NCBI RefSeq assembly: GCF_000183725.1
Contig: NC_014762.1
Location: 1,116,001-1,180,000, forward strand
DNA: 64,000 nt
Reading direction: 5' to 3'
From: Sulfuricurvum kujiense DSM 16994
GTDB lineage: Bacteria > Campylobacterota > Campylobacteria > Campylobacterales > Sulfurimonadaceae
Shown: piece by piece, positions 15,747 through 35,748 of the stretch
Numbering within the stretch: position 1 is the stretch's first letter
Layout of the letters: every line of letters begins with the position of its first letter
Notes under the pieces: model-generated
The model's database searches: none
Told to the model about the DNA's origin: nothing
What the model saw: the letters and a program-made list of their open reading frames with translations, nothing else
Made by a program: the position numbers and the translations under genes

Positions 15747-15764
15747 CGTTATATCAGAAATACA
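15747..15764 (+). promoter_or_regulatory. Possible ModE operator upstream of the molbindin gene
   Basis: CGTTATATC at 15747-15755 is identical to the strong half of the operators found upstream of the Mo-uptake genes. It is followed by AGA-AATACAAT, so the second half (AATACA) is present but three bases closer than in the others. Its orientation relative to the rightward molbindin gene is the same as that of the other sites to their genes. It lies 77 bases before the ATG at 15841 and 36 bases before the divergent slyD start. Confidence 0.5.
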
Positions 15765-15840
15765 ATAAGCAAAATATTAAGTTTGATTTGGCGATACTGT
15801 CATAACCGCAGACATTCGCAATATATTTTAAAGGGATGTT

Positions 15841-16257
15841 ATGAAAACAAGTGCACGCAATGAACTCAAAGGGACAATCAGCGAGATAAAAACAGGGCAG
15901 ATCAACAGTGAAGTCGTCCTCTCCATCGGGAGCGGTATCGTCATCAAATCGGTCATTACGAATGAATCGGTTGACGAAATGGAACTGAGTGTAGGGGATA
16001 CGGCCTACGCGATTATCAAAGCACCGTTTGTCATGGTCGCTAAAGACAAACCGACGAATATCAGCACGCGCAATATCATCGAAACCAAAGTGACCGAAGT
16101 GAAAAACGGGATGGTTAACAGCGAACTCAAGCTTGCGATGGGGAGCCAAACGCTTACCGCCGTTATCACTGAAGATGCGGTGGAAGACCTCCATTTTAAT
16201 GTCGGCGATACCGTCTATGCCCTCATTAAGGCCAATTTCATCATACTTGCCAAATAA
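15841..16257 (+). CDS. mop: Di-domain molbindin (two TOBE/Mop domains)
   Basis: A 138-residue protein made of two similar TOBE (Mop) domains of about 68 residues, at about 3-68 and 73-138. Each has the S-A-R-N/S-T-R-N opening, a V-N-S-E-L/V core and a V-G-D-x-x-Y-A-x-I-K-A ending. Such molbindins store and buffer molybdate or tungstate in the cytoplasm as oligomers. AAAGGGATGTT provides the ribosome binding site. It converges with modC, with a shared hairpin terminator between them, and carries an upstream ModE-like half-site. Confidence 0.9.
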   Translation: MKTSARNELKGTISEIKTGQINSEVVLSIGSGIVIKSVITNESVDEMELSVGDTAYAIIKAPFVMVAKDKPTNISTRNIIETKVTEVKNGMVNSELKLAMGSQTLTAVITEDAVEDLHFNVGDTVYALIKANFIILAK

Positions 16258-16264
16258 TTCTTCA

Positions 16265-16285
16265 ATTTCGGGCTTTGCCCGAAAT
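16265..16285. terminator. Bidirectional terminator between mop and modC
   Basis: ATTTCGGGC (16265-16273) and GCCCGAAAT (16277-16285) form a perfect 9-bp stem with a TTT loop. It lies between two convergent genes, with T-rich sequence rightward at about 16299-16317. It can end transcripts from both sides. Confidence 0.8.
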
Positions 16286-16365
16286 CATTCCCGCCTATTT
16301 CTTTGATTTGTTTTTTTACATAAGAGAACTGTCTTGGATATACATTGGAACAAGAACGTATGTGC

Positions 16366-17241
16366 TTATTCTACCGGCATGACGATCGGATTGAATGCTT
16401 TGGTCGAAATAATGGCGTGCTTTCCGACACATAACAAATGTGCTTCTTCATTGCTCAGTACGGTACGAACAACGGACGAGCCTACTAGCAAGGTCACTAC
16501 GCTGATCGGAAAATCTTCTTCTATCTTTAAAACTTCTCCGATAAGCTGAAGCTTGGTACTCAGGGTATGGGGACTGAAAAATTCCAACGGATCGCCGACG
16601 CGGATGATTTTGCCCAGCTCAATCGACGCCATCCGGTCGGAGAGTTTAACGGTTTCGGAAATGTCATGACTCACCAGCAGTGTCGTGATTCCCAGACGCT
16701 TGTGCAGCAGTGAGAGTTCGTCCTGCAGCTTTTGGCGCATAGTGGGATCAAGCGCCGAGAGAGGCTCATCGAGGAGCAAGATCTTCGGATGGCGTACCAG
16801 TGCGCGGGCGAGGGCGACACGCTGTTTCTGTCCGCCGGAGAGGGTAGCGGGGAGACGCTCCGAGAGCTGCGATAGTTCGACCAGCTCTATCAGTTCGTCC
16901 ACACTGCGGCGCTGCTCGGCCGTTTCGGCGGCAAAAAGGAGATTTTCTCTTACGCTCATCGTCGGGAAGAGGGCGTAGTCTTGGAAGACAAATCCGACGC
17001 TTCGCTTTTGGGGGGTGAGATTGATCTTTTTGGTACTGTCGAACCATACCTCGCCGTCCACTTCGATGATACCGCTCTCAGGCTGTTCCAGTCCGGCGAT
17101 CATGCGCATCAGGGTCGTTTTTCCCGCCCCGGAAGGGCCGAAGAGGGTCAGGAATTCACCATCCGTGATGGTGAGCTCAAAACAGGCGTTTAGTGAGCCT
17201 TCGGAGGTATCGAGACGCTTTGTGATATTAACTGATATCAT
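16366..17241 (-). CDS. modC: Molybdate ABC transporter ATPase ModC
   Basis: ATPase of the high-affinity molybdate importer, 291 residues. Walker A G-P-S-G-A-G-K-T-T (about 35-43), signature L-S-G-G-Q-K-Q-R (about 133-140), Walker B L-L-L-D-E-P (about 155-160) and the H-loop histidine in S-H-D-I-S are all present. It is shorter than the roughly 350 residues of E. coli ModC, with only a short C-terminal TOBE-like region. Storage and sensing may thus fall to the separate TOBE proteins nearby. Its start overlaps the modB stop by 4 bases. Confidence 0.92.
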   Translation of the reverse strand: MISVNITKRLDTSEGSLNACFELTITDGEFLTLFGPSGAGKTTLMRMIAGLEQPESGIIEVDGEVWFDSTKKINLTPQKRSVGFVFQDYALFPTMSVRENLLFAAETAEQRRSVDELIELVELSQLSERLPATLSGGQKQRVALARALVRHPKILLLDEPLSALDPTMRQKLQDELSLLHKRLGITTLLVSHDISETVKLSDRMASIELGKIIRVGDPLEFFSPHTLSTKLQLIGEVLKIEEDFPISVVTLLVGSSVVRTVLSNEEAHLLCVGKHAIISTKAFNPIVMPVE

Positions 17242-17912
17242 CGAATCCCCCCTAACGATTTTTTGTTAAGAGTGTAAACCAGAAGCAAGATGGCAAACGT
17301 TACCGCAAAAAGGGTCAGGGCGTACTGGTGTGCCAGAGCATAGTTGAGCGATTCCACTTCGTCATAGATGGCGATGGAGGCGACGCGTGTTTCTCCGGGG
17401 ATGTTTCCGCCGATCATGAGGATGACCCCGAACTCACCGACCGTGTGGGCAAAGGCGAGAACGATCCCTGAAATAAGGCCGTGCCGGATAGAGGGGAGGA
17501 TAACCCGTATCATCGTCTCCCATTTCGATTTGCCGAGGGTATAGGCGGCTTCGAAGATCGATCGAGGAACTTGCGCAAGTGCCGACTGGATCGGGTGTAC
17601 CATAAAGGGGAGACTGAAAAGGATAGATCCGATCACAAGCCCCTCAAAACTGAAAGCCAAACGGATGCCGTGTTCGGTCAAAAAACTGCCGATCGCGGAG
17701 GCGGGGCTGAATGCCAACAGCAGATAAAAGCCCAGTACCGATGGTGGCAAGACAAGCGGCATACTGACAATCGTCTCTATGATACTCTTGAACCGCATAC
17801 GGCTGAAGACCAAGAATGAGGAGAGGGGAATGGCGATTACCAGCAAAATGACCGTGGTGATGGAGGCCAGTTTAAAGGTAAGCAGCATCGTATTTATAAA
17901 TTCAGCTTCCAT
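17238..17912 (-). CDS. modB: Molybdate ABC transporter permease ModB
   Basis: Inner-membrane permease of the ModABC importer, 224 residues with about five membrane helices. The cytoplasmic coupling loop E-A-A-Y-T-L-G-K-S-K-W (about 142-152) and the A-H-T-V-G-E-F-G-V-I-L-M-I-G-G-N-I-P-G-E-T signature split between residues about 178 and 198 are typical of ModB. It overlaps modC by 4 bases and the upstream TOBE gene by 11 bases. The matching ModA is encoded about 17 kb away in the same orientation. Confidence 0.94.
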   Translation of the reverse strand: MEAEFINTMLLTFKLASITTVILLVIAIPLSSFLVFSRMRFKSIIETIVSMPLVLPPSVLGFYLLLAFSPASAIGSFLTEHGIRLAFSFEGLVIGSILFSLPFMVHPIQSALAQVPRSIFEAAYTLGKSKWETMIRVILPSIRHGLISGIVLAFAHTVGEFGVILMIGGNIPGETRVASIAIYDEVESLNYALAHQYALTLFAVTFAILLLVYTLNKKSLGGIR

Positions 17913-18297
17913 GATGACCTCTCAGGAGTGATATTTCGCTCGGTTGAACCATCCAGCACACTTCATCCCCCTCATGGATATCGAGTGTATCGAATCTCAA
18001 GGTCGGGACGAGGGCATTGATAGCCGTATCGTGATAGTGAAGGGTAATCTGGCTTAGAACGCTCCCTTGTGAAATACGGGTAACAACGGCACGGTGAATA
18101 TTCGCCGTGGTTGCCGTATAGGTTTTGGAGAGGATGATTTCGGTCTCTTTGAATGCCAGTTTCAACGGTTCGCCTATCGACTCGTGGCACTGTTCGGCAA
18201 GGAGAAGATGAAAGTTGTCTTCCCCCACGCTAACGGAGAGAATACTCAAATGTTCAGAAGAGGTGATAGCGGTCAAAACGGCATTCAGAATGTTCAT
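17902..18297 (-). CDS. Stand-alone TOBE-domain protein in the mod operon
   Basis: A 131-residue protein of two TOBE-like halves: about 1-62 (N-A-V-L-T-A-I ... K-L-A-F-K-E-T-E-I-I-L) and 64-131 (N-I-H-R-A-V-V-T-R-I ... G-D-E-V-C-W-M-V-Q-P-S-E-I). It looks like the C-terminal module that is normally fused to ModC and is largely missing there, so it may act in trans on ModC or as a cytoplasmic oxyanion buffer. It is embedded between modD (4-base overlap) and modB (11-base overlap). The role is inference from domain type and position. Confidence 0.7.
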   Translation of the reverse strand: MNILNAVLTAITSSEHLSILSVSVGEDNFHLLLAEQCHESIGEPLKLAFKETEIILSKTYTATTANIHRAVVTRISQGSVLSQITLHYHDTAINALVPTLRFDTLDIHEGDEVCWMVQPSEISLLRGHHGS

Positions 18298-19142
18298 AAC
18301 GGCTCAATTCTCACTTTGATGTCGGCGCTCTGGGCGTTATACGGAGAAGAGGTAACGATCATATCGACCCCCGTACTTGCATACTCGGCAATATTTTTGG
18401 TACTGATCCCTCCGGTCGCGATAAGGGTGATATGCGGATAGTCAGCCCGCAGTATCTGCACCGCATCGGAGAGTTTGGTGAGCGGGAACTTTTCGAGTTG
18501 GAGGATATCGATACCGAGACGGGCGAACTTCAACGCTTCGGCGATGTCCCCCGCTTCCATCACGATTTTTTTCTCCGGGTTCGCTTTTCTGGTTTTGTTC
18601 AGCGCTTCGGCAAATGCTTCTTCGGAGGGGAAAAATACGCGGTGGTAGTCAAAAATCAAGATACTCTCGGAGAGGCCGAGACGATGGGCGACGCCTCCGC
18701 CGGCTTCGACTGCTTTGATGGCGATTTTTTTCGTAAACGGGGTCGTTTTTCGGGTAGTGGCCACGACGATATCGGGATTGATACTGCGGGCTAACAGTAC
18801 CGCCTCACGGGTATAGGTCGAGATCCCGCCGGCGTAATCGAGGAGGTTCTGGACACTCTTCCAGATGCGGTGGATGTGGCCCGCTTCGCCGCGTGCTTCG
18901 AGAAAGACGCTTTTAGGCGGAACCAGCGTCCCCGATTTCACGAAACCGTCGATCTCTAATCCGTAGAGTCCGCACAGCCGTACTGCTTCTTCGGTGCAGG
19001 AGACGACGAGCGGGCGTTCGCGGGTGGCAAAAGTGATCCGGGCGCGCTGATCGGTGATACCCAACGATGCCGTCGTCAAATCGCCGTAGGGGACATCTTC
19101 GGCAAGCAAGGCTTCCAATTCGTGATCGTTCAGGATGATCAT
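18294..19142 (-). CDS. modD: ModD, quinolinate phosphoribosyltransferase-like protein
   Basis: A 282-residue homologue of nicotinate-nucleotide pyrophosphorylase (NadC) of the ModD subgroup, found in molybdate-transport operons. Family features are E-D-V-P-Y-G-D-L-T-T near the N-terminus, the R-K-T-T-P basic motif near residue 133, H-R-L-G-L-S (about 155-160) and the A-T-G-G-I-S phosphate loop (about 249-254). Its biochemical role in Mo metabolism is not established. ATG at 19142 is chosen because it overlaps the upstream stop as ATGA; an in-frame upstream codon at 19157 would lie inside that gene. It may act on a pyridine carboxylate or another small ligand, which is speculation. Confidence 0.85.
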   Translation of the reverse strand: MIILNDHELEALLAEDVPYGDLTTASLGITDQRARITFATRERPLVVSCTEEAVRLCGLYGLEIDGFVKSGTLVPPKSVFLEARGEAGHIHRIWKSVQNLLDYAGGISTYTREAVLLARSINPDIVVATTRKTTPFTKKIAIKAVEAGGGVAHRLGLSESILIFDYHRVFFPSEEAFAEALNKTRKANPEKKIVMEAGDIAEALKFARLGIDILQLEKFPLTKLSDAVQILRADYPHITLIATGGISTKNIAEYASTGVDMIVTSSPYNAQSADIKVRIEPL

Positions 19143-19933
19143 TGTGCGCACTCCCAAGAGATGAACGCCCAGTTTACGGCACGCGGAGGATGATTTTGTC
19201 CGACGATGACGTCGCGGTAGTATTCGCGCGCTTTTACCTTTTGTTCATCGTTCAACTCATGGACGCTCCAGATCAGCGATTCGACAAACTCCTCTTCATT
19301 GCCTGCACGGACGCTTCCCCGACCCGTTTCGATGTAGTCGACGCGGGGAAGGTAGCCTTTTGAATAAAGGAGGATCGGGATGTACCAGTAGTCGGGTTTG
19401 GTTTTGACCTTTTTGCCGATGTAGTCTAGGATATTCATATCGACGAAACTTCCCCCGACTTTGTAGGTGAGGTAACATGCTTTGGATGCATGGCCGGACA
19501 TTTTGGCGAGTGCCGCGTCGATATCGGAAACTTCCATCGAACGGGAAGCAACGACGATATCGATCGGCGGCAAATGGCTCCAGTCATCTTCCCAACCGAT
19601 ATGATATGTTTTAATATTAGTCACCCCTTCACGTGCCGCATAGGCTTTTAGCTCTTCGAGCATCTGTGCGGAGAAATCGATGGCGATTACCTCTTTGACC
19701 AATTTTGCCAACGGAACGGCAAGGGTGCCCGGTCCGCATCCGATATCCAAAACCACTTCATCTCCGGTGAGTTTCATATGGGAGATGAAGTCGTTTACAT
19801 AGGGGCTGTTGATAACGGATGCCGCCATATCTTTGGACTTTTCATCCCAGTCGGTATTGGTTTTGCCTTTGAAATCGGTAGTGGCTTTATGCTCGCGGTA
19901 CATGGAGGCAAAATCGATCGGTTCTAAAAACAT
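19139..19933 (-). CDS. Class I SAM-dependent methyltransferase, first gene of the mod operon
   Basis: A 264-residue class I methyltransferase. Motif I is V-L-D-I-G-C-G-P-G-T-L (about 61-71), the acidic residue of motif II lies in A-I-D-F-S (about 84-88), and an I-D-I-V-V-A-S-R-S segment follows near residue 130. The substrate is unknown. It starts the operon methyltransferase-modD-TOBE-modB-modC, and all junctions downstream of it overlap. A ModE-type operator ends 27 bases before its start codon. The ribosome binding site is AAGGA. Its regular place in a Mo-transport operon suggests a role in handling a Mo ligand, but this is inference. Confidence 0.8.
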   Translation of the reverse strand: MFLEPIDFASMYREHKATTDFKGKTNTDWDEKSKDMAASVINSPYVNDFISHMKLTGDEVVLDIGCGPGTLAVPLAKLVKEVIAIDFSAQMLEELKAYAAREGVTNIKTYHIGWEDDWSHLPPIDIVVASRSMEVSDIDAALAKMSGHASKACYLTYKVGGSFVDMNILDYIGKKVKTKPDYWYIPILLYSKGYLPRVDYIETGRGSVRAGNEEEFVESLIWSVHELNDEQKVKAREYYRDVIVGQNHPPRAVNWAFISWECAQ

Positions 19934-19959: not shown

Positions 19960-19980
19960 TGTATCACATTTGATCTAACG
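19960..19980 (-). promoter_or_regulatory. ModE-type operator upstream of the mod operon
   Basis: On the plus strand the site reads TGTATC-ACATTT-GATCTAACG. It matches the cluster motif TGTATC-N6-GATATAACG at 14 of 15 fixed positions. It lies 27 bases upstream of the methyltransferase start, where a repressor would cover the promoter. Confidence 0.8.
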
Positions 19981-20015: not shown

Positions 20016-21995
20016 TTAGAATTTGTAGCCGAGAGTAGCGAAAAATTCGCGTCCTTCAGTCGGGAAACCCAAATCGTATTGATAAAATTTATCGGTAAGA
20101 TTTTTGATTCCCACTTCCGCCGTGACGTTTGCCGTCGGTTTATAGATCGCTTTGAGATCGAACGTCGTGAAGGTCGGGCTGATGATATACGAATTGTCCG
20201 CTATTTGATCGTAGGCTCCTTTTCTAAATTTCATATCGCCATAGAGTGCAATATTTGCTCCTACATCGACTTGGGAGTAGGCAAAAAGTTGATGACGCGG
20301 TACATCGGTCCGTTTGATACTGGCATCGGTACGGTTTTTGACGGAGGTATAGGTGTAGTTTCCGCCCGCTTCGAGAGTATCGGATTTATAGCTTAGCTCG
20401 GTCTCGATACCGCGATGGTAGAAACTTCCGACGTTTTGATTTTGGTAAAAGCTCGGATTCGGAGCATAGAGTGTTTGTTGTATAGCATCGTCGACCCGTG
20501 TAAAAAAGCCGTTAAGTCGGGTTGAGAAGAGGCCGAAGTTTTTTTGGTAACCGAGCTCGTAATGGGTAGCCGTTTCGTTATCGAGTTCCGGATTAGGGTA
20601 AAGGGGCGGGATTTTAAGGGTTCGGCTATAGCGGTCTTTCATGGAGGGCATATAGGTTTTACGCGCGATACTGGCGCGGATTTTGGACGTTGAATCGGGT
20701 GAATAAACGACTGCCGCTTCGGGATTGAAAGAACTTTGCGTCTCCAGACTCAGAGCGCTGGCCAAGGTCGGATTGGTGTCGTAAATTTTGTCCGCATCGC
20801 GGCGGTCATAACTTACACCGCCGAGAATCTGCCATTGTGAAGAGAGGGTATAGACATCTTCGAGACCGACGGAGAGGGTGTGGTCTTCATAATTTTCGGT
20901 AAGGGTTTCATGGCTGGTGGCTTTGTTGATGTCATACCCTTTGTGGACATCTTTTTTATAATTGAGTGCAGCACTCAGGAAATGTTTTTCCAACTCGATA
21001 CCGTATTCGAGCCGTCCGCCGTAGCTGTAGTCGTCGTATTTGCTTTTAAAGGTCGAACCGAACGAGTTGAACGTCGAATAGGTGTTATTGGCATACGAAT
21101 AGAGTGAGTTTTCAAACGTATCGTAATAAGCGAGGGCTTTGATGTAGCCGTTGCCTAGATTTTTCTGTCCTGTGATAAAGACGGACTCTTTATCCCAGTA
21201 CGGCCAATCCCAATAGCGGACGCTGTTATAGACGGGATTTGTGCTCGGCGGCTGCTGTTTCTCACCGTTTTGGTTCGAGTAACCGATGGCGATTTCACTG
21301 CCGTCATCGGCGATGTATCCGGTTTTAAAACTGATTTTATAATCTTCGGTAGCGGAGCGAAGACGATCCCCCTCCGGCTGTGAAGCGCTCCCTGAATAAT
21401 CATCGCTCAGGCGGAAATGGTTTTGATCGCTATATACGGCTCCGAGCTGGGCATAGAGATGGTCTTGGCGTGTACCGAGATTAAGCGAAGCGGTTTTACG
21501 GGAGAGTGCGGTATCGCTATCGAGAACCATTCCCACTTTGATTTCGCCCTCCAGAGGTTTGGTAGGACGTTTGGAGATGATATTGATAACGCCTCCCATT
21601 GTATTGGCTCCGTACGCAACGGATGAAAATCCTTTTGAAACATCGATTTGGGCAATATCGCTTGTCAGGAAACGGTCATAATCAAAGTTTCCGTCATAGG
21701 GAACATACACCGGAATACCGTCGATGAATACGCCGACCCGTTTTGCATCAAATCCGCGGATACTGAGTGTCGCTTCATTGCGTGCCCCCATCATACTCAT
21801 GCTGACGCCGCTGATATTATTGAGCGCGTCGGCGACGGTTTCGCTGTTTTGCTGCGCAATGGTCTCTGCGCTCATCGTCTGTTCCAGAGGACTCTCTTCG
21901 AGCGGGGTATTAAGGACGTTGACCTGTCCCAGAGTAAAGGTGTCTGCCAGCACCGCGGAAGCGGCTAGAGAGATCAGCAACAGATGTTTTTTCAT
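20016..21995 (-). CDS. TonB-dependent outer-membrane receptor (receptor 1)
   Basis: A 659-residue TonB-dependent receptor. A signal peptide (about 1-17) is followed by a possible TonB box (F-T-L-G-Q-V-N-V). The plug domain (about 40-150) has S-I-R-G-F and Y-G-A-N-T-M-G-G-V-I-N-I, and the beta-barrel ends in the expected terminal Phe. BtuB/FecA-like receptors bring scarce ligands across the outer membrane with proton-motive energy. It is the last gene of the operon that begins with receptor 2 at 25727, 15 bases after the monooxygenase gene. The ligand is unknown; the ModE-type control of the operon suggests a Mo or W species. Confidence 0.9.
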   Translation of the reverse strand: MKKHLLLISLAASAVLADTFTLGQVNVLNTPLEESPLEQTMSAETIAQQNSETVADALNNISGVSMSMMGARNEATLSIRGFDAKRVGVFIDGIPVYVPYDGNFDYDRFLTSDIAQIDVSKGFSSVAYGANTMGGVINIISKRPTKPLEGEIKVGMVLDSDTALSRKTASLNLGTRQDHLYAQLGAVYSDQNHFRLSDDYSGSASQPEGDRLRSATEDYKISFKTGYIADDGSEIAIGYSNQNGEKQQPPSTNPVYNSVRYWDWPYWDKESVFITGQKNLGNGYIKALAYYDTFENSLYSYANNTYSTFNSFGSTFKSKYDDYSYGGRLEYGIELEKHFLSAALNYKKDVHKGYDINKATSHETLTENYEDHTLSVGLEDVYTLSSQWQILGGVSYDRRDADKIYDTNPTLASALSLETQSSFNPEAAVVYSPDSTSKIRASIARKTYMPSMKDRYSRTLKIPPLYPNPELDNETATHYELGYQKNFGLFSTRLNGFFTRVDDAIQQTLYAPNPSFYQNQNVGSFYHRGIETELSYKSDTLEAGGNYTYTSVKNRTDASIKRTDVPRHQLFAYSQVDVGANIALYGDMKFRKGAYDQIADNSYIISPTFTTFDLKAIYKPTANVTAEVGIKNLTDKFYQYDLGFPTEGREFFATLGYKF

Positions 21996-22010: not shown

Positions 22011-23018
22011 TTAAATGTACGGTCGGATTTCGGTATTGAACCGAGAGAGCATCCACCGATTTTGACCGTAGTCGGTGGAAGAAGGTTTGAGAACAAGATG
22101 GATATTCGACAACTCCTTTTGAATGGTTTTAATCGTCTTTAGACACTCCTCAACACTGCCGATAATGCCGTTTTCGAAGAACTTTGCACCGTTGAAAAAC
22201 GCGTTGCGTTCTTCTAACAGGGCTTTATAGTTTTCCGGGTCAAAATGCGGCTGTATCTGTTCGGCTTGTGCGGCGCGCATACATTTGACAAAATGATCGA
22301 TGCCGGGGATCGCACCGCATTGCGCTTCATCTGTCGTTTCGGCGACGTAAAAGACCCGCATGACGACCATCTGCGGATCATGCCCGGCGATGGAGCGATA
22401 AAAGTTGCGTGCCTCGATGCATTCGTCCAACGAGGCTCCTTGTGACATCATCAGCCCGTACCCGTGTGTCGCGGCGAATGCGATGGTCTCTTCGGAAGAG
22501 AAGGTGGCTATATAAAAGGGAATCTCTTGTTGGAGAGGCAGAGGTGCGAGAAGGGCATTGTTGATGTGGACGAATTGCCCGTTATACTCTGTAGGTTTTC
22601 CGTGCAGCAGCAGATCGATCGATTCTACCGTTTCGAACATGACGATTTTAAGCTCCTCTTTGGAACGGACGAAATGTCGGGTATCGGGGGCAAATCCCCC
22701 CTTGGCAAAGCCGGCATTGATCCGTCCCTTTGAGAGGTTGTCCAGTACGGCGATACTTTCGGCGAGGCGAACCGGATGGTAAAACGGAGCCAGAAAGCCT
22801 GCCGTTCCCAAACGGATACGTCCGGTACTCGCTGCACAATAGGCTATCATGGAGGCGGGGTCGGGGATAACGCTAAAGGCATTGAAATGGTGTTCGCCGA
22901 ACCACGCTTCATCAAAGCCGAGTTCATCGGCCAATTCGACGAGATGAAGCTGTTCTAATATACTTTCATTGACGTTGCCCGAATAGTTTTCGGCCAGGCA
23001 AAATAATCCGATTTTCAT
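22011..23018 (-). CDS. Luciferase-like flavin-dependent monooxygenase
   Basis: A 335-residue LLM-class TIM-barrel flavoprotein related to bacterial luciferase, using reduced FMN or F420. Family features are L-A-D-E-L-G-F-D-E-A-W-F-G-E-H-H (split around residues 29-44), L-G-T-A-G-F-L-A-P (about 70-78), P-V-R-L-A-E (about 82-87) and I-N-A-G-F-A-K-G. The substrate is not predictable. It sits between a methyltransferase and a TonB-dependent receptor in one operon headed by a ModE-type operator. This suggests that it alters or releases a ligand of the imported metal; that is inference. Confidence 0.85.
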   Translation of the reverse strand: MKIGLFCLAENYSGNVNESILEQLHLVELADELGFDEAWFGEHHFNAFSVIPDPASMIAYCAASTGRIRLGTAGFLAPFYHPVRLAESIAVLDNLSKGRINAGFAKGGFAPDTRHFVRSKEELKIVMFETVESIDLLLHGKPTEYNGQFVHINNALLAPLPLQQEIPFYIATFSSEETIAFAATHGYGLMMSQGASLDECIEARNFYRSIAGHDPQMVVMRVFYVAETTDEAQCGAIPGIDHFVKCMRAAQAEQIQPHFDPENYKALLEERNAFFNGAKFFENGIIGSVEECLKTIKTIQKELSNIHLVLKPSSTDYGQNRWMLSRFNTEIRPYI

Positions 23019-27565: not shown

Positions 27566-28575
27566 GCTGCCCTCGCGTTTTTAAGTACGATAATAAAGAT
27601 AGGAATCCCGATGAGCGACGTGAGTATCCCGATGGGGATTTCGACACTGAAAGAGAGGCGGGAGATCGTATCGGCTAGGAGCAAAAACGCTCCGCCGACG
27701 ATAGCCGAAAGGGGCATCAGAACACGATGGGACGGTCCGAGTGCCATACGGATGATGTGGGGGATAATAAGCCCGATCCATCCGATAATCCCCGCCATCA
27801 CGACCGAAAGCGAGCCGGCAAGGGTTGCTAATACGATCGCTCCGAGGCGAACAAGGGTGACATTGATTCCCAGCGCTTTCGCTTCTTCGTCTCCCAAACT
27901 CATCAAGTCGAAGTATTTGCCCAGTACGATTAGGCCGATGATACTGGCGAGCATAGGGACAGAGATAAGTAATACGCCGTGCAGATCCGCCATCGTCAGG
28001 CTCCCCATCAGCCAGTAGACAATGGCGGGAAGGGTACTGTAGGGATCGGCGAGATATTTGATGATTGAGAGCAAAGAGGTAAAGAGGGCACTGCTGATGA
28101 CTCCTCCGAGCACCAGCATCACGGTGGATCGTGAATTGGTCACCATCGTTCCGATCAATACGGCGACGCCGACGGCGACAAAACCGAAAGCGAACGCCAG
28201 CAGTTGGACGACATACCATTGCTCGCTTACCAACATCCCCAGCGCAGCACCGAACGATGCACCCGCCAATACGCCCAAAATACCGGGCGATACGAGAGGA
28301 TTGACAAACATCGCCTGAAATGCGGCACCTGACGTGGCCAATGCCGATCCGATAAGGATGGCGAGCAATACCCTCGGAAGACGGATTTGCAAAATGATAT
28401 TGTCGAGCAGTGTATAGGTATCGCACCCTGCGCCGCCGAACAGTTTAAACTGAAGATAAGCGATCAATGTCTCCAGTGAGATCGGGTATTGACCCCACAA
28501 AAGGGATAAGATGGCTATCATGCACAACATCAGTGTCGAGCCGATCATCCATCCCGCCGTTTTAAACTTTTTCAT
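27556..28575 (-). CDS. FecCD/BtuC/MolB-type ABC permease
   Basis: A 339-residue permease with about ten membrane helices. FecCD family signatures are I-R-L-P-R-V-L-L-A-I-L-I-G-S-A-L-A-T-S-G split around residues 63-82, N-P-L-V-S-P-G-I-L-G (about 91-100), and the C-terminal G-L-I-I-P-H-I-I-R (about 268-276). With the ATPase and the two binding proteins it forms a complete class II importer. It starts 8 bases before the end of receptor 3 and is clearly co-transcribed. Confidence 0.92.
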   Translation of the reverse strand: MKKFKTAGWMIGSTLMLCMIAILSLLWGQYPISLETLIAYLQFKLFGGAGCDTYTLLDNIILQIRLPRVLLAILIGSALATSGAAFQAMFVNPLVSPGILGVLAGASFGAALGMLVSEQWYVVQLLAFAFGFVAVGVAVLIGTMVTNSRSTVMLVLGGVISSALFTSLLSIIKYLADPYSTLPAIVYWLMGSLTMADLHGVLLISVPMLASIIGLIVLGKYFDLMSLGDEEAKALGINVTLVRLGAIVLATLAGSLSVVMAGIIGWIGLIIPHIIRMALGPSHRVLMPLSAIVGGAFLLLADTISRLSFSVEIPIGILTSLIGIPIFIIVLKNARAAWN

Positions 28576-28583: not shown

Positions 28584-30824
28584 TTAAAATTTTAGATTGA
28601 TGCTGCCAAACAGTCCGAAAGGGGCACCGCTCTGATACGTGCTTGCCGTACCGGTTGCCGCTAGAAAATTGTCGGCGGCGTTGATGGTTGAAATATACTT
28701 CTCATTCGTAAGATTGGTTGCCGTAAGACGAAAGAGGGCATTACGTGAACTCATGAACTGTGCCATACGATACGTCAGGTCAAAATCGACAAGGGTATAG
28801 GCATCCACTTTTTGGGTATTCGCGACGTCACCGTAGCGGCTGGAGCTGTATCGGGCACTCGGAGTAAGGGTCCAATCGCCGATGTGATACGAAAGGGCCG
28901 CTTTGGCCATGTACTTCGGTGCATCGGGAAGCTGTTTGCCGTCGGTATCGACCGTAGTCGTCGCGCCGCTTTTGAAATCCTGGGTAAATTGATAGCGGTT
29001 ATAGGAGAGCCCCAGTAAAAGTTCCAACTGTTCATTGATCGGACCGTAGGCAGAGAACTCCGCACCGTAGCCTAACGCGTCACCGACGTTAGCGGGATAG
29101 TTGACGCCGAATGACGGATCGTAGATATTGGCCTGTTTGTTTTGGACGAATGAGACGAAAAGGCTCGGATTGAGGGTAAGTCCTCCTATCGTCGTTTTAA
29201 CCCCTACGTCGATATTGTCGGAAAGTTCAAGATCGAGTTTGTCCCACAGCTGTTGCAAGGTGACATTTTTGGCTTTGAACGTATCACGGTTTGAGATATA
29301 GGTTGGAAACAGATTGACATCGAATCCGTAGGTTCGCGAATAATCGATATAGGCGGTTGTTGATGGGGTAAACGCATATCCGAGATAGAGCGATGGGATA
29401 AAGGTATGAAACGTTTTCGCATCGACGCTTGCCCACGGATCGATTGCGGTTGAGTCAATCGCTGCATTATAATCGGGATTGGCTGCTCCCGTTTGATTGC
29501 CGAATGTATGGCTTTCCAGTGCTCCGAGTTTGAAAGATTGCAATTGGGCTCCGGCGACATAGTTGAAATGATCCAGCGTACCGCTGATTTGGGCAAACGG
29601 TGCTTGGAGAATATGGTAGTCGTTGTCGGATAGGACGGCATACCCGTCAAACACCAAATTCCCGTTGACCACTTTGTATTTGATCTGATCGCTCGGCGGC
29701 CCGGGAGGGAGCTGTTTGTGGTACCAATATCCGATTTCGGCTTTCAGCGCTTCGGAAAATTCGTGATCGTACGCGGCGGTTGCACCGTAGAGATCGTGCT
29801 CCATTCGCCAGTCCATAACACGCTGTTTGGCCGCGGCAGTATCAAATTTAGAGAACCAATAATCCCCTTCGTCTTTTTTATAATACGGTTTGATCGTGAG
29901 GGTGTCCGATGAAGTCGGGCGGTATTCGAACTCTCCCAGCAATGCCGTTGTCAGGAAATGTTGTTTGTTCCAGTCGTAATAATCGACATCGTTGGATACG
30001 GTCGGTTTGGCGGTTGCAAAATCTTTTGTGAAATTTGATCCGAGATCTTTTGCTTCGTCATACGAGAGGTTGTAATAGTTGTGGTGATCGTCCGAGTTGC
30101 GGATAGCGGTGATTTTTGCTTTAAATGCATTGTTAGGAGTATAGGTGAGCCCCAATGTTCCGTTGAGACGTGTAAGATCGCCTGAACCTTTGTTTTTATC
30201 GCTGCTAAGATGGGAAAATGAGCCGAAAATCGCGACGTCTCCGATTTTACCGGAGTCTAATCGGACAAAGGTACGCATAAAATCATCGCTACCGAACGAT
30301 TGAGATACTTCGGCACCTGCGCGGGAACGTGCCGAGAGGAGATTCATATCGACTTTTCCGATAAGAGATGAGAACCCGAGGTTTTTATCCGCAGGAAGAT
30401 ACCCTTTGAGAAGGTCGATAGAAGAGACGTTTTCCATATCGAGAAGCTGTTTTCCGCCTCCGGGATTGCTGGAGATCGGCATGCCGTCGATCATATAAAC
30501 CCCTCCCGGACCGCTTTGGCTTTTGCCGCGGATTCGGATAGGATCGTGATAGGAGGGTTCGTTGGAACCGGCCTGATCGACCGGGGTAAAATTGACGGAA
30601 GGCGAATAGGCGATAACGCTATAGGGGTTCATGTTGGCCTGCGTACTGAGCGTCGCAATGCTTTTGGCACTGAATGTCTGATTAGACCCGCTTATATTGG
30701 AATCTGAGATCATGGAAGTGCCGTCATCAGCAGCATCACTGACGATGATCCGTTCAATCCCGAGAGGATCAGCGGTGAGTACCGCACATGCGGCGAGAGA
30801 AAGGACAAGTGGTGAAAGTTTCAT
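28584..30824 (-). CDS. TonB-dependent outer-membrane receptor (receptor 3)
   Basis: A 746-residue receptor with a signal peptide (about 1-18) and a plug domain (about 45-165) showing R-I-R-G-K, Y-M-I-D-G-M-P-I and I-G-K-V-D-M-N. The barrel is long and Tyr/Asp rich, ending in I-N-L-K-F. The plug lacks the usual R-G-F/Y and instead has R-G-K-S-Q-S-G-P-G-G. It is distinct in length and sequence from receptors 1 and 2. It sits between binding-protein paralogue 2 (4-base overlap) and the permease gene, so it is the likely outer-membrane partner of this importer. Confidence 0.9.
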   Translation of the reverse strand: MKLSPLVLSLAACAVLTADPLGIERIIVSDAADDGTSMISDSNISGSNQTFSAKSIATLSTQANMNPYSVIAYSPSVNFTPVDQAGSNEPSYHDPIRIRGKSQSGPGGVYMIDGMPISSNPGGGKQLLDMENVSSIDLLKGYLPADKNLGFSSLIGKVDMNLLSARSRAGAEVSQSFGSDDFMRTFVRLDSGKIGDVAIFGSFSHLSSDKNKGSGDLTRLNGTLGLTYTPNNAFKAKITAIRNSDDHHNYYNLSYDEAKDLGSNFTKDFATAKPTVSNDVDYYDWNKQHFLTTALLGEFEYRPTSSDTLTIKPYYKKDEGDYWFSKFDTAAAKQRVMDWRMEHDLYGATAAYDHEFSEALKAEIGYWYHKQLPPGPPSDQIKYKVVNGNLVFDGYAVLSDNDYHILQAPFAQISGTLDHFNYVAGAQLQSFKLGALESHTFGNQTGAANPDYNAAIDSTAIDPWASVDAKTFHTFIPSLYLGYAFTPSTTAYIDYSRTYGFDVNLFPTYISNRDTFKAKNVTLQQLWDKLDLELSDNIDVGVKTTIGGLTLNPSLFVSFVQNKQANIYDPSFGVNYPANVGDALGYGAEFSAYGPINEQLELLLGLSYNRYQFTQDFKSGATTTVDTDGKQLPDAPKYMAKAALSYHIGDWTLTPSARYSSSRYGDVANTQKVDAYTLVDFDLTYRMAQFMSSRNALFRLTATNLTNEKYISTINAADNFLAATGTASTYQSGAPFGLFGSINLKF

Positions 30825-31843
30825 CGGTTGGCTCCTAATAGGTTTTTGATTTGTTCGTCACTGAGTTTGACATGTAAGAAAAGGTCATAAAACTCTTTGG
30901 TTCGCTGATTCAGATCGGCTTTGAACTCTTTGGGATGGAAGAGATGGGCGAGCCATTGAATACCGAGTACCCGCATAAACGAGGGAGGGCGGTCGACCCA
31001 GTTAAACGGCTGAACCGGAACCAAATAGATACGCCCGCTTTTGAGCGCACGCAGACTTTTCCACATCGGATCGGTGATGAGATCGTTATACACCGCACGG
31101 TTCTGGACGATGATGACATCGGGGTTATAGGCGAGCAGGGTTTCAAAGCTTATTTTTTCAAGTCCCAATATGCCGCTTTGTTGACAGGAGTGGACATTGC
31201 GTCCGCCGGCAAAATTCATCGCTTCGACATGAAACGAGCTGTCGCATTCGGTAGAGAGACCGTCCAACCCTTCCGCATAGTAGTAGCGGACCGGTTTGGC
31301 TTTGGAGACGCTTTTTTGGACATCTTTGATGATTTTCTCGGAATACGCTGCGAGTATTTCGCCCCGTTTCGACTCGCCGATCGCATTTCCGGCGAGGCGG
31401 AATGCACGCGGCATATCGTTAATATGGCGAAAAGGGATCAGGTAAGACGGTATCGCTGTTTTTTCAATCTCTTTGGCAACGGTTTGCACCAGCATATCGT
31501 CTTGCCATACCAGTACCAGCTGAGGCTTGTATTTCATCAGGGTTTCGAGGTTAATGCTCTGGCCTCCGCCGTGAAACGATCCTATGACCGGCAACGAGAG
31601 AAACCGTTTATTCAAAAACTGCTCATCGGCGCTGTTATTCGGATTTCTGGCTTTAAAATTCAGCCCTATCATCTTGTCCGGATTGAGCGTATAGAGCAGA
31701 TAGTTCATCGGAGGAGATGAACCGAAAACATGGTCGGTCTGGTCGGGCAATATGACGGGATGACCGTCCATGTCGTTAAGAGTCTTGGCGTGAAGCGTAA
31801 ACGCAATCAACGCTATACTCAGTATCTGTATAAGATGTTTCAT
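30821..31843 (-). CDS. Class III periplasmic binding protein (paralogue 2)
   Basis: A 340-residue paralogue of the protein at 25800-26777, with a Sec signal peptide (about 1-19) and no lipobox. Shared blocks are Y-Y-A-E-G-L-D-G-L-S-T-E-C-D-S-S-F-H (about 188-205), a second Cys 20 residues after the first, and R-P-P-S-F-M-R-V-L-G-I-Q-W-L (about 288-301). Two binding proteins for one permease suggests two ligands or two affinities. It overlaps receptor 3 by 4 bases and follows tonB by 9 bases. Confidence 0.87.
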   Translation of the reverse strand: MKHLIQILSIALIAFTLHAKTLNDMDGHPVILPDQTDHVFGSSPPMNYLLYTLNPDKMIGLNFKARNPNNSADEQFLNKRFLSLPVIGSFHGGGQSINLETLMKYKPQLVLVWQDDMLVQTVAKEIEKTAIPSYLIPFRHINDMPRAFRLAGNAIGESKRGEILAAYSEKIIKDVQKSVSKAKPVRYYYAEGLDGLSTECDSSFHVEAMNFAGGRNVHSCQQSGILGLEKISFETLLAYNPDVIIVQNRAVYNDLITDPMWKSLRALKSGRIYLVPVQPFNWVDRPPSFMRVLGIQWLAHLFHPKEFKADLNQRTKEFYDLFLHVKLSDEQIKNLLGANR

Positions 31844-31852: not shown

Positions 31853-32644
31853 TTAAGATTTTGAGAGTGAAAATACGATAGGTATTTTCAAATAGGCTGT
31901 TTTGGAAAGGCTAGGATAATCGCCGCTCAACGCCAAAACGGTTTGAATCGCTTTGGAGTCCAGTAGATGACTGCCGCTCGAGGAAAGTATTTCGGCTTTT
32001 TCCACCAATCCGTCCGGTTTGAGGACAAAGGATACGATTACCGTCCCCTCTATGCGCAATTTGCGTGCAACAGAGGGGTAGGTAAGGGAGTTTTCAATCA
32101 TAGCTCGTATGCGTCCCAGTGTTGCCCCATTGATATCTTCCGATGAAACGTTCGGTTTTGGTAATTCGTTCGTTTGTCTAAGTGTAGATGCATCATGAGG
32201 AGAATCATTTGCGATGGGGTTAAGAGCCGAATGAAGCGGCTCTTTTGATTGGATATCCGATGGGGCAACACCGGGACGCACAGGAGAAGTTTGAGGCGCT
32301 GACGCCTCGGGAGAAGCTGCCGGAGTGAGTGGCAGCCTCTCCTGAGAAGTCACATGACGGGGAATTGTATCGGTTTTTGATCGTAAAGTTTTCACAGATT
32401 CGGCATGGTTGATGATTGGTTTTTGTTGATCGGATATAACATCAGCAGGTGCATAGTCGGCTAACGAGATCAGGATCGGCTTCTTCTTCGGCAACTCTGA
32501 GGGCTGGTGGAGTGAAAAATAGAGTGCCGTACTCAGCACGGTTGCATGCACGAAAAGTGATGCGGCGAACGATTTGGCTTTTAAGGCAAAATCGTTTTGT
32601 TGTATCTTAAATGATATAACGATGGGATCAAAAAAAATCATCAT
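31853..32644 (-). CDS. tonB: TonB family energy-transducing protein
   Basis: A 263-residue TonB-like protein. It has one N-terminal membrane segment (about residues 25-45) and a long Pro/Ser/Glu-rich periplasmic linker. The C-terminal TonB domain (about 178-263) has L-T-Y-P-S-V-A-R-K-L-R-I-E-G-T-V and F-V-L-K-P-D-G. No exbB or exbD accompanies it, so it must share those from elsewhere. The ATG at 32644 overlaps the globin stop (ATGA). The ModE-type operator at 32601-32621 lies inside its first codons, so a downstream non-ATG start cannot be excluded. Confidence 0.85.
   Translation of the reverse strand: MMIFFDPIVISFKIQQNDFALKAKSFAASLFVHATVLSTALYFSLHQPSELPKKKPILISLADYAPADVISDQQKPIINHAESVKTLRSKTDTIPRHVTSQERLPLTPAASPEASAPQTSPVRPGVAPSDIQSKEPLHSALNPIANDSPHDASTLRQTNELPKPNVSSEDINGATLGRIRAMIENSLTYPSVARKLRIEGTVIVSFVLKPDGLVEKAEILSSSGSHLLDSKAIQTVLALSGDYPSLSKTAYLKIPIVFSLSKS
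32601..32621 (-). promoter_or_regulatory. ModE-type operator within the start of tonB
   Basis: The plus strand reads TGTATC-TTAAAT-GATATAACG, matching all 15 fixed positions of the cluster motif. It lies 23-43 bases inside the assigned tonB reading frame and downstream of the globin gene. It could control an internal promoter or block elongation, or the tonB start could be wrong. Confidence 0.75.
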
Positions 32645-33201
32645 TTTCCCCAAATCGCGCTGTAGGGGTGGCGTTCGATCGGCGCAACAGTGGTTCTGCG
32701 ATTAATCATACGGATAGAGAGCGGTTCAATCCAGTTCCAAAACTCTTCAACGCAGCCTGAGGGCATCTTTAAATCTTTAATTGTTTTTTTGTACATCATC
32801 AGCCATATTTCACGCCCTTTTTCATCGATCGTAATATGAAAATGACGCATCCGAAGGGCAGGGTGCCCATGTACCGGTGTGTAGCTTTTTTCACCGCCGA
32901 GGGCTTCGACGAAAAAATCGGCGGTTTTCTCGGTCGCGTGGGCAAATGCCGCATCATCGGAGGGGAATAGATCGCCGATTGCGCTTTTGCGCAATAACTC
33001 ATGATGATAACGCACCATTTTGCGGATATTCTCTTCTCCCCATTGCTGAATGAGGATGATGGTTGGAAACGGAACTTCGGGATACACAAAATCGATTTTG
33101 GCTTCGGCCGTATGGGGTGTCATACTTGCAGGTTCGAACGGCTTAGTCCCGCACGCGCTAAATAGGGATACCGGTTTTCCCTCAGACATTATGTGTGTCA
33201 T
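32641..33201 (-). CDS. Truncated globin-like haem protein
   Basis: A 186-residue protein with a central truncated-globin domain (about residues 45-155). It shows F-F-V-E-A-L-G-G, then Y-T-P-V-H-G-H-P-A-L-R-M-R-H-F (the proximal His region, about 108-122) and E-I-W-L-M-M-Y-K-K-T with the G8 Trp of group II globins. N- and C-terminal extensions of about 45 and 30 residues are unusual. Such globins bind oxygen or nitric oxide. AGGAT precedes the ATG at 33201. It is the first gene of the operon globin-tonB-binding protein-receptor 3-permease-ATPase-binding protein. Its link to metal import is unclear. Confidence 0.75.
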   Translation of the reverse strand: MTHIMSEGKPVSLFSACGTKPFEPASMTPHTAEAKIDFVYPEVPFPTIILIQQWGEENIRKMVRYHHELLRKSAIGDLFPSDDAAFAHATEKTADFFVEALGGEKSYTPVHGHPALRMRHFHITIDEKGREIWLMMYKKTIKDLKMPSGCVEEFWNWIEPLSIRMINRRTTVAPIERHPYSAIWGK

Positions 33202-33415: not shown

Positions 33416-34786
33416 CTAGAAACGGTAATTGATTTCCAAACGCATTTCCTGATTCGATGTTTCAGCTGTCGCTAAAGCTGTCTTATCATTATTTTGATCC
33501 ATCAAACGGGCTTTGAGTTCCGTCCCTTTCCAGTCTCCGGCAAGTTTGTAGAGAATATCGAAATTCCATTGGTGGGTATCCCCGTTTCCGAAGGCTCTAT
33601 CCGTCATGCTTTGATACGGTTTTTTGCTCGGATCACGATCGTAATAGGCATAGCTGAGCATCGTACTCATACCCGCTACTATGGCATCAAAGTCATAATC
33701 AAACTCTGCTTTATATGCCGTAGTATTGGCATTCCAATCGGTTTGCGTCATGCTTCGCGTATAGCCTTGGGTCGGGAATCCGCGCCACGGGGCAATCATA
33801 TCTGCACCGCTGTCCGTGTGTGATGTCGCTAGCAGAAATTTTGCTGCACGGTAATTTGCCGTAGCTCTTAAAGCCCAAAGATTGGTATCGACGCTGTTAT
33901 CACTGTCGTAGTTATTGGTTTTAGGCAAGATAATATCCCCGGCCCCTTTGTCGTATTGCTGCATATATAAACCGCCGAGTCCGAGGATCACATCACCCGC
34001 TTCAAACGCGTAATTGGCTTCCAGACGAAGATGATCTACCAGATCCGGCCAATGCATGACCCATCCTTCAAGTTCAAGGTTGTCGAATGAACGGTTTTTG
34101 ATACCGAAAACGGTGACATCCGGAGCGTCTCCGTGTCTATGAGTAGCGGTACCGTAGCCGGTATCGTAATACGAACTGATTTTAGAAGGAGTATCGAGCG
34201 TTTCGGCCATATTTCCGAAATAGTCCATACCGCGTTCTTTGATTTTATCGATATAGTCCAACTGAACGGTAGTGTTAAGGAGATCATTTGAAACAAAATC
34301 AACCCCTTCGAAAGCAACCGGGATCATCTTGGTGTCGTTGGGCGACATCCACGGATTACTTACCAGCATGCGGCCCGCTCTGATTTTGCTTTTGGCAATG
34401 TCGTATTGCAAATAGGCCTGTGCCAAAACGGCGTATCCGTCGCCATAATCGTAGGCAGAACCCGGGCCTCGTGCAAACAGGTCTTTGGAGGTATTGGCAT
34501 TTTTGCCGTCTTCCGCATCTGTCCATCCACCCGGATTTTGAGTGGTATAAAGACCTGTTCCGAAACTAAAACCGTACAATGGTGCTGTTTTATAGATCAA
34601 ACTTCCGCCGACGGCAAAGCCTGTTGCACTGTATTTTGCATCATTATCCCAATCGGTCACAAAATATTGGGCTCTGAGGCGCCCGTCAAGTTTTCCTTCT
34701 TTAAAAGCACTGACTAGATTATCCGCTGCCGATGCAAATACTGCCGATCCCAAGAGCAATGCTGCTGCTAAACTAAGTTTTGTCAT
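33416..34786 (-). CDS. OprD-like outer-membrane porin
   Basis: A 456-residue outer-membrane beta-barrel. A signal peptide (about 1-21, ending A-S-A-A) is followed by an OprD-family start (L-D-G-R-L-R-A-Q-Y-F) and A-G-R-M-L-V-S-N-P-W, and it ends in the porin-type I-N-Y-R-F. OprD porins pass small solutes through a basic-lined channel. A ModE-type operator sits 10 bases upstream of its ATG, between modA and the tonB operon. Diffusion of an oxyanion such as molybdate is therefore a plausible task. The ribosome binding site is AAGGAT. Confidence 0.82.
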   Translation of the reverse strand: MTKLSLAAALLLGSAVFASAADNLVSAFKEGKLDGRLRAQYFVTDWDNDAKYSATGFAVGGSLIYKTAPLYGFSFGTGLYTTQNPGGWTDAEDGKNANTSKDLFARGPGSAYDYGDGYAVLAQAYLQYDIAKSKIRAGRMLVSNPWMSPNDTKMIPVAFEGVDFVSNDLLNTTVQLDYIDKIKERGMDYFGNMAETLDTPSKISSYYDTGYGTATHRHGDAPDVTVFGIKNRSFDNLELEGWVMHWPDLVDHLRLEANYAFEAGDVILGLGGLYMQQYDKGAGDIILPKTNNYDSDNSVDTNLWALRATANYRAAKFLLATSHTDSGADMIAPWRGFPTQGYTRSMTQTDWNANTTAYKAEFDYDFDAIVAGMSTMLSYAYYDRDPSKKPYQSMTDRAFGNGDTHQWNFDILYKLAGDWKGTELKARLMDQNNDKTALATAETSNQEMRLEINYRF

Positions 34787-34796
34787 TTTATATCCT

Positions 34797-34817
34797 TGTA
34801 TATTTTTTGATATAACG
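34797..34817 (-). promoter_or_regulatory. ModE-type operator upstream of the porin gene
   Basis: The plus strand reads TGTATA-TTTTTT-GATATAACG, matching 14 of 15 fixed positions of the cluster motif. Its near edge is 10 bases before the porin ATG at 34786, next to the ribosome binding site, so a bound repressor would cover the transcription start. Confidence 0.8.
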
Positions 34818-34878
34818 CTATTGATTCAAAAATTCGACTGTCTATACCGCAAATGTGTCTCTGCCAAAGCAGAGCTGT

Positions 34879-35634
34879 TTATTTTTTCGGTAAGCCGTAT
34901 CCGCTCTCTTTTAATATGCTTTGTGCTTTGGCTGATGACATAAAACGTAAGAATTTTTTGGCAGCAATCTGGTTTTCAGGAGAGCCGTTTTTGAGACCTA
35001 CCATCGCCTGATCGATAGTGTTGTACGATTTTGGATCGACTTCGACCCATTTTCCGACATTTTTCATCTCAGGAGAGAGAACGATCGATTTTGCCATAAA
35101 GCCGACATCGACCGCTTTGGTCGTGACATAGCTTCCCACTTGCGAAATCGATTCGGCGGTGACGATTTTTGAGGTTACCGCATCGGCTACTTTATAAAAG
35201 CGCATCGTATTCATCGCTTCTATTCCGTAAGGGGCGGTTTTAGGGTTAGCGATGGCAATTTTCTTGACGGCCGGATTCGCTACGACTGTGACCCCTTTGG
35301 AGAGATCGACACCGGTATCGCTCCACAATACCAGCGTACCGTAGGCATAGACTTGAGCGGGAGTCGTAGTGTAACCGCCTTGAACCAGTTTTCCCGGAAA
35401 TTCTACATCCGCAGATAAAAAGGCATCATACGGAGCACCGCTCATAATTTGCTGAGTAAGTTTTCCCGATGCACCGGTGATGATTTTGACACCGATACCG
35501 CTCTCTTGGCTAAACGCTTTGGCAATATCGTTCACCGCATATTTCATGTTGGCCGCAGCGGCTACTGTAATCGTTTGAGCCGCAATGGCAGAGGCAAATG
35601 CCAATGAAGCAAGAACAAGCTTGAGTAATTTCAT
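34879..35634 (-). CDS. modA: Molybdate-binding protein ModA
   Basis: Periplasmic molybdate/tungstate-binding protein, 251 residues, with a signal peptide (about 1-18). Family signatures are V-A-A-A-A-N-M-K-Y-A (about 24-33), G-A-S-G-K-L-T-Q-Q-I (about 55-64), P-Y-D-A-F-L-S-A-D (about 69-77), and N-P-K-T-A-P-Y-G near residue 134. The motif pattern is that of classical ModA rather than WtpA or TupA. It is transcribed alone, about 15 kb upstream of the mod operon that encodes its permease and ATPase. Two ModE-like operators lie in its upstream region. Confidence 0.94.
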   Translation of the reverse strand: MKLLKLVLASLAFASAIAAQTITVAAAANMKYAVNDIAKAFSQESGIGVKIITGASGKLTQQIMSGAPYDAFLSADVEFPGKLVQGGYTTTPAQVYAYGTLVLWSDTGVDLSKGVTVVANPAVKKIAIANPKTAPYGIEAMNTMRFYKVADAVTSKIVTAESISQVGSYVTTKAVDVGFMAKSIVLSPEMKNVGKWVEVDPKSYNTIDQAMVGLKNGSPENQIAAKKFLRFMSSAKAQSILKESGYGLPKK

Positions 35635-35645
35635 CTTCTTTCCTT

Positions 35646-35666
35646 AGTATCTATTTTGATATAACG
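35646..35666 (-). promoter_or_regulatory. ModE-type operator next to modA
   Basis: The plus strand reads AGTATC-TATTTT-GATATAACG, matching 14 of 15 fixed positions. It lies 11 bases upstream of the modA ATG, adjoining the AAGGAAAG ribosome binding site. Confidence 0.8.
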
Positions 35667-35714
35667 ATAAACACAAACCAAACATTGCAAAAACGGTTCG
35701 CAGAAAAATGCGAC

Positions 35715-35748
35715 AATTTCGTTATGTTTTGTAAGATACAACGAAATT
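35715..35748. promoter_or_regulatory. Second, more symmetrical ModE-like operator upstream of modA
   Basis: AATTTCGTT (35715-35723) and AACGAAATT (35740-35748) are perfect inverted arms. The inner part CGTTATGTT-TTGTAA-GATACA-ACG spans 24 bases, with CGTT and AACG ends, the arrangement I recall for the E. coli modA operator. In orientation it is opposite to the site at 35646 and points rightward. It may serve modA as a second site, or a rightward promoter. Confidence 0.6.

Follow-up and report, generated by a model that had tools for sequence, protein, structure and literature searches.

Here we present an analysis of a repeated DNA motif in a 64,000-nucleotide stretch from the sulfur-oxidising bacterium Sulfuricurvum kujiense DSM 16994 (contig NC_014762.1, positions 1,116,001 to 1,180,000; the whole stretch is called the window, and positions are counted from its first letter). 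The motif is very probably the operator of ModE, the molybdenum (Mo)-sensing regulator encoded nearby, and the ModE regulon that it marks would control TonB-dependent uptake of Mo or tungsten (W). An earlier note on this DNA had proposed a local Mo regulon; that reading is supported by the exclusivity of the motif to the locus, by its likeness to a known operator, by the motifs kept in ModE and by the co-occurrence of motif and modE among relatives. ModE regulons are well known, and the usual view is that molybdate passes the outer membrane by passive entry via porins; in Sulfuricurvum, the regulator appears to switch an energised outer-membrane import system beyond the ordinary molybdate pump, by means of a single DNA signal repeated over a 20-kb cluster.

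The motif is confined to one locus

Five sites with at most one mismatch, a six-base spacer and a single orientation had been claimed. Searching for the 21-base element TGTATC-N6-GATATAACG recovered all five on the plus strand (19960, 34797 and 35646 with one mismatch, 25766 and 32601 with none), and at up to one mismatch they were the sole matches in the whole genome (2,819,357 bp). With two mismatches the pattern also matches at 35720 on the minus strand, and at up to three mismatches the window contains 10 matches against 1.6 expected, a number reached in none of 100 shuffles. The genome was also scanned with an independent matrix, a sequence-only model trained on 53 sites, all of them from other Sulfuricurvum genomes and none from the window. 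The top five hits were exactly the five window sites, at 27.1, 26.2, 21.3, 21.2 and 20.6 bits, followed by a next-best score of 14.2. In this asymmetric matrix the mop site (12.0 bits) and the symmetric site at 35720 (11.5 bits) fall below the genome background (14.2), so support for both comes from comparison with relatives. A loose palindrome, CGTTAT-N12-ATAACG with two mismatches, was rejected as a genome-wide definition after giving 143 matches against 162 in the control; the core half-sites alone are thus insufficient to define the regulon.

Across 41 genomes of the genus, the motif at up to one mismatch was found in 24, with 59 matches against 7 for the reversed pattern. Fifty-one of the 59 lie at genes of Mo clusters (modA, porin, tonB, receptor, luciferase-like monooxygenase (LLM), methyltransferase, globin or mop), and the remaining eight approximate the reversed-pattern count. 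These unlinked matches were treated as chance: G007:C2 and G040:C92 (one long open reading frame (ORF) family), G012:C60, G017:C2, G018:C5, G020:C12:74703, G022:C5 and G023:C20. The possibility raised by the earlier note, that the motif might be common away from Mo genes, was not borne out, as all good sites of the S. kujiense genome lie in the locus. Where the Mo cluster consists of modA and modBC only, as in L105, L112 and L116, sites are kept in the modA leader only. A protein search detected modE in 33 of the 41 genomes; the motif is present in 30 of these vs two of the eight lacking modE (Fisher p = 4.5e-4, an optimistic value since the genomes are related), and in one of those two it is a chance match in a long ORF.

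Nothing was found in favour of chance or repeat-driven similarity, although the motif is A+T-rich in places; that explanation is excluded by the genome-wide and comparative tests, namely the shuffles, the reversed-pattern controls, the matrix from other genomes and the orthologous positions of the sites, and we give it negligible weight.

ModE and the known operator

The modE gene reported at 38903 is indeed present and complete: residues 14-256 of its product align to E. coli ModE (E = 2e-31), a full-length match, and the product passes the TIGR00638 cut-off. Both the molybdate site (TTSARNQ vs TSARNQ) and the recognition helix (SYKAAWERIN vs SYKSAWDAIN, keeping SYK-AW) are retained. The half-site had been called ModE-like, and the comparison bears this out. 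In the annotated E. coli genome the modA operator, CGTTATATTGTCGCCTACATAACG, spans 24 bp as CGTTAT...ATAACG and stands 19 nt before the modA ATG, with modE nearby; the window sites share its half-site and its length. They are also close to the published ModE consensus, ATCGNTATATA-N6-TATATANCGAT (PMC545781).

The receptors, TonB and the FecCD-like importer of the locus are of kinds usually placed under iron regulators, and one could suppose that the motif belongs to a regulator of iron or of general starvation, with the proximity of ModE incidental. We consider this very improbable: modA, modBC and mop bear the same motif, the half-site agrees with the E. coli ModE operator, the motif tracks the presence of modE, and no further sites exist in the genome despite other tonB-like genes.

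Between modE and the modA promoter, positions 36000-38784 hold two genes (one for a 488-residue protein without a Pfam match, the other DUF6414). In many relatives modE lies 100-300 bp from modA, so this segment looks like an insertion.

Three placements of the sites

The underlying element is a 24-bp inverted repeat of CGTTAT-type half-sites, which is found in three placements that the earlier note had missed: a palindrome (class B) at the modA promoter, asymmetric sites (class A) at gene starts, and an upstream site at mop. Class B sites have both halves complete. In class A the left half is complete and the right half is reduced to GATACA or GATACT.

Class B (CGTTATATC-N6-GATATAACG and close variants) was found in about 14 loci before modA or globin genes, 2-3 nt after a TATAAT that itself lies about 10 nt after TTTAAG; before modA, the arrangement TTTAAG-N10-TATAAT with the palindrome 2-3 nt further on is seen in about ten relatives. 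The window site at 35720, correctly described earlier as a more symmetrical 24-base form, starts 2 nt downstream of the TATAAT of the putative modA promoter. It would cover the modA transcription start, the classical position for repression. This promoter was missed by a TTGACA-type scan, as expected of an upstream box unlike TTGACA, and was recognised only by comparing relatives. The stretch of modA leader that separates the class B from the class A site contains a small hairpin (TCGCATTTTTCTGCGA, 35698-35713), which was considered as an attenuator and rejected, being paired in some relatives and broken in others.

Class A sites (CGTTATATC-N6-GATACA or GATACT, full half-site always upstream) are found either about 8-40 nt ahead of a start codon or within the first part of the gene. 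In the window, the distances from the 21-base site to the starts of modA, the porin, receptor 2 and the methyltransferase-modD operon (Table 1) agree with the 10-40 bases given in the earlier note. Among modE-linked Sulfuricurvum loci, 43 of 46 matches are co-directional with the nearby gene start; the three exceptions are two palindromes read backwards and one match at a contig edge.

At mop, the earlier note had described the site at 15747 as three bases shorter, and here we differ: the site is better read as unchanged in length, its right half having decayed (CGTTATATCAGAAATACAATAAGC; core CGTTAT-N12-ATAAgc). Downstream stands a promoter-like sequence, TTAAG-N11-GATACT (15777-15798), an order conserved in the window and five relatives. 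The site thus lies upstream of a core promoter, where an activator would sit, a probable activator-type position that the earlier note had overlooked. Activation of some promoters is known for the ModE family, and we predict that ModE may activate mop. The mop leader also contains a hairpin (15809-15842; CAGACATTC ... GGATGTTATG) that includes the ATG and part of the ribosome-binding site. Of its nine pairs, seven are kept throughout the six sequences compared; there are no two-sided changes, so that its support is conservation only. It could add translational control of mop.

A site within the tonB coding sequence

The claim of a site inside the start of tonB was confirmed: it covers about codons 7-14 and starts exactly 20 nt downstream of the A of the ATG in 15 of 15 Sulfuricurvum loci, the window included. 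The codons beneath the motif are almost invariant (GTT in 15/15, ATA in 14/15, ATA in 15/15), ATA accounts for 11% of isoleucine codons in the genes of the window, and for conserved residues beside the motif several synonyms are used. Judged by these codons, selection acts on the DNA (or RNA) within the coding sequence. A site occupies this position of tonB also in L156, L161, L173, L179 and L182, which are Sulfurovum-like or related genomes, and is nearly symmetric in L161 and L182. From the 15 loci, tonB most likely starts at the ATG at 32641; this ATG shares bases with the stop codon of the globin gene (TGATG on the minus strand), an overlap that points to coupling. For the downstream genes, the site may thus serve either as a roadblock or as the control point of an internal promoter. 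Other tonB-like genes elsewhere in the genome were without such sites in the whole-genome scan, so the TonB of this cluster may be dedicated.

Class A sites could instead be RNA elements of leaders or early coding sequence, acting for example on translation or processing, with only the class B palindromes serving as ModE operators. Their single direction relative to the gene and their location at gene starts, in some cases adjoining the ribosome-binding site and in one within coding sequence, would fit such a role. The left half of class A, on the other hand, is an exact ModE half-site; the spacer is free in sequence and fixed in length; any stem would comprise just 4-5 A-U-rich pairs before a conserved A-C mismatch; and the Sulfurovum-like tonB site (CGTTATGTTTGAAAACATACAACG) is nearly symmetric, as expected of DNA. 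On balance we judge the RNA explanation improbable and take both classes as candidate ModE operators.

Recurrence in other Campylobacterota

The recurrence of this gene set across Campylobacterota also lay beyond the earlier note. In Sulfurimonas, Sulfurovum and Sulfurospirillum, genes for MolABC-type importers, TonB and receptors adjoin modE, with palindromic sites between them. In other Campylobacterota the module often includes ExbB and ExbD, which are absent from the window's cluster and present in Sulfurimonas-type loci; it stays beside modE even where the locus is without modABC (L224, L225 and L227).

In other Sulfuricurvum genomes, globin paralogues (L095:5004-5563, L102:1375-1934 and L097:915-1478) each have, directly after TATAAT, a class B palindrome that is perfect or nearly so, and ModE seems to target truncated globins regularly. 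Sulfurospirillum-type loci (L177, L178, L183 and L184) have the palindrome in a shifted form, CGTTATATA...CTATAACG or a close variant, beside modE and close to where molA-like and methyltransferase genes diverge, which suggests operator drift between genera. A small contig (G000:C3:33045-33068; L028, L029) holds the palindrome TGTATC-N6-GATACA, which resembles two facing class A right halves, has no CGTTAT half and is possibly the site of another regulator.

Genes of the locus

The sites and genes of the locus are collected in Table 1. ModC is split, with a small gene of its own between modD and modB for the C-terminal regulatory part that ModC itself lacks; the arrangement is conserved in the genus, and it accounts for the ModC score below cut-off. 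The TonB C-terminal domain and the receptor plug domains match above cut-off. The closest solved structure to the MolB-like permease is HI1471, the H. influenzae MolB molybdate permease, and MolA-like protein 1 is closer to 4pag, a molecule whose name gives no function, than to HI1472. The genome contains eight matches to the molybdopterin oxidoreductase family, which makes a demand for Mo plausible. In the Mo cluster of L110, which is without MolABC genes, the neighbours of receptor 1 are a di-haem cytochrome c peroxidase and a TupA-like protein, of the tungstate-binding type (L110:5147-7466).

Table 1. Sites and genes of the ModE-linked locus, by position in the window
Feature	Position	Strand	Basis
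mop-type site, CGTTATATC...ATAAGC	15747..15770	+	kept in L091, L097, L100, L102, L114 (full-length alignments)
mop, two-domain molybdate-binding protein	15841..16257	+	TIGR00638 above cut-off
modC without usual C-terminal domain	16366..17241	-	220, below cut-off 285
modB	17238..17912	-	TIGR02141 238 (cut-off 182.6)
Detached ModC C-terminal-like protein	17902..18297	-	matches ModC positions 236-345 only
modD (quinolinate phosphoribosyltransferase-like)	18294..19157	-	TIGR01334 above cut-off
S-adenosylmethionine (SAM)-dependent methyltransferase A	19139..19933	-	family match
Class A candidate operator, CGTTAGATC form, 26 nt before methyltransferase-modD-modBC operon	19960..19980	-	same CGTTAGATC variant in L090, L094, L095, L107
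TonB-dependent receptor 1	20016..21995	-	family match
LLM flavin monooxygenase	22011..23018	-	family match
SAM-dependent methyltransferase B	23028..23645	-	family match
TonB-dependent receptor 2	23658..25727	-	Plug domain only
Class A candidate operator, 38 nt before receptor 2	25766..25786	-	also in L093, L096, L099, L102
MolA-like periplasmic binding protein 1	25800..26777	-	4pag 7e-85; HI1472 MolA 1e-22 with profile
MolC-like ATPase	26774..27565	-	FecE/BtuD-class ATPase
MolB-like permease (FecCD/BtuC fold)	27556..28575	-	HI1471 (MolB) 6e-59; BtuC 2e-37
TonB-dependent receptor 3	28584..30824	-	family match
MolA-like periplasmic binding protein 2	30821..31843	-	family match
tonB	31853..32641	-	TIGR01352 above cut-off; start from 15 loci
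Class A candidate operator inside tonB	32601..32621	-	pattern and matrix; same position in 15/15 loci
Truncated-haemoglobin-like protein; stop overlaps tonB start	32641..33201	-	PF01152; sequence
OprD/MOMP-type porin	33416..34786	-	family match
Class A candidate operator, 10 nt before porin ATG	34797..34817	-	pattern and matrix; also in L099, L101
modA, periplasmic molybdate-binding protein	34879..35634	-	TIGR01256 166 (cut-off 62.5)
Class A candidate operator, 11 nt before modA ATG	35646..35666	-	27.1 bits, genome best; same place in most relatives
Class B candidate operator, near-palindrome CGTTGTATCTTACAAAACATAACG read toward modA	35720..35743	-	sequence and relatives; covers expected modA transcription start
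Putative modA promoter, TTTAAG (35762-35767), N10, TATAAT (35746-35751)	35746..35767	-	sequence; kept in relatives
modE, helix-turn-helix and two Mop/TOBE domains	38903..39679	-	E. coli ModE 1b9m/1o7l, E = 2e-31

The proposed regulon and its substrate

We infer the following scheme. When cytoplasmic molybdate is plentiful, molybdate-loaded ModE would bind the 24-bp sites; at class B it would cover the modA transcription start and repress modA, and at class A it would block internal promoters or a running RNA polymerase at the starts of the porin, tonB, receptor 2 and the methyltransferase-modDBC operon. The ModABC pump and the TonB-driven uptake module would thus be shut off together, the module comprising the dedicated TonB, three receptors, the MolABC-like importer with its two binding proteins, the LLM oxidase and the methyltransferases. 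At mop, molybdate-ModE may raise the level of the storage protein. Under Mo shortage, the module would most likely import Mo (or W) across the outer membrane, probably as an organic complex.

Several observations weigh against this scheme. ModE itself falls below curated NCBIfam cut-offs (NF007957, 163.7 bits for a cut-off of 369; TIGR00637, 96.3 for 98.5). A symmetric dimer alone does not account for class A sites having a fixed orientation and a weak downstream half. The internal promoters proposed at these sites are putative, a scan for TTGACA/TATAAT-type promoters and for terminators having given no excess of either. In family scans, receptor 1 scores best with haem and siderophore receptors, below cut-off. 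The MolBC-A system of H. influenzae is described as a low-affinity molybdate system, a poor fit to scavenging (PMC4031551).

The ModE regulon might be genuine and the TonB/MolABC module still import something else, such as haem, corrinoid, an Fe-siderophore or tungstate only, the demand for which follows Mo status. The subfamilies matched by receptor 1 lean this way, as does the TupA-like protein in the cluster of a relative (L110), and an organic ligand is suggested by the presence of the LLM and the methyltransferases. Against this, the module shares operons and operators with modA, modBC and mop, its MolB is closest among solved structures to HI1471, and it remains beside modE in the loci without modABC. 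We consider such a substrate unlikely, and complexed Mo or W offers the most economical account of what is imported. A fuller proposal is offered tentatively, and we hold it to be possible rather than probable: that Campylobacterota import organic complexes of Mo (or W) through ModE-controlled receptors and MolABC, that LLM, methyltransferases and ModD free the metal inside the cell by acting on the ligand, and that the intragenic tonB operator controls flow through the operon.

An operator-level link from a sensor to a dedicated TonB, receptors and importer, recurring in several genera, makes active outer-membrane Mo uptake a concrete prediction for Campylobacterota in culture, Sulfurospirillum among them. 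Candidate functions also follow for the accompanying genes (LLM, methyltransferase, globin and ModD), and the tonB site would be a clear example of selection maintaining an operator within coding sequence.

Comparison with known systems

A literature search, with subscription journals mostly outside its reach, returned no report tying ModE operators to TonB, receptors and MolABC, and none of an operator inside tonB, which is not proof of absence. The E. coli modABC operator shares with the Sulfuricurvum sites the half-site, the 24-bp length and a modE gene nearby. The E. coli locus examined has one site, before modA, whereas Sulfuricurvum has five to seven, some of them asymmetric and one inside tonB, with targets that include TonB, receptors, a porin and MolABC.

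In Azotobacter vinelandii, TonB-dependent siderophore receptors activated by VnfA1 are expressed without Mo and vanadium (PMC9542535). The likeness lies in TonB receptors with ATP-binding cassette (ABC) genes induced when Mo is lacking; the differences are the regulator, VnfA1 instead of a demonstrated ModE, and the phylum. For the diazotroph Azotobacter chroococcum, active outer-membrane Mo uptake has been suggested from annotation (PMC4465626), with a TonB receptor and a second ABC transporter beside modE and modABC as in Sulfuricurvum; the passage concerned stays at the annotation level, offers no operator evidence and names no dedicated tonB among the genes of the cluster.

For the importer itself, the nearest comparison among known systems is MolBC-A of H. 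influenzae (HI1470-1472), which has the same FecCD/BtuC-type permease and ATPase with a BtuF-type binding protein, and whose regulator is described as unknown (PMC4031551). The Sulfuricurvum system differs from it in having two binding proteins, in its coupling to receptors and TonB, and in the presence of ModE sites.

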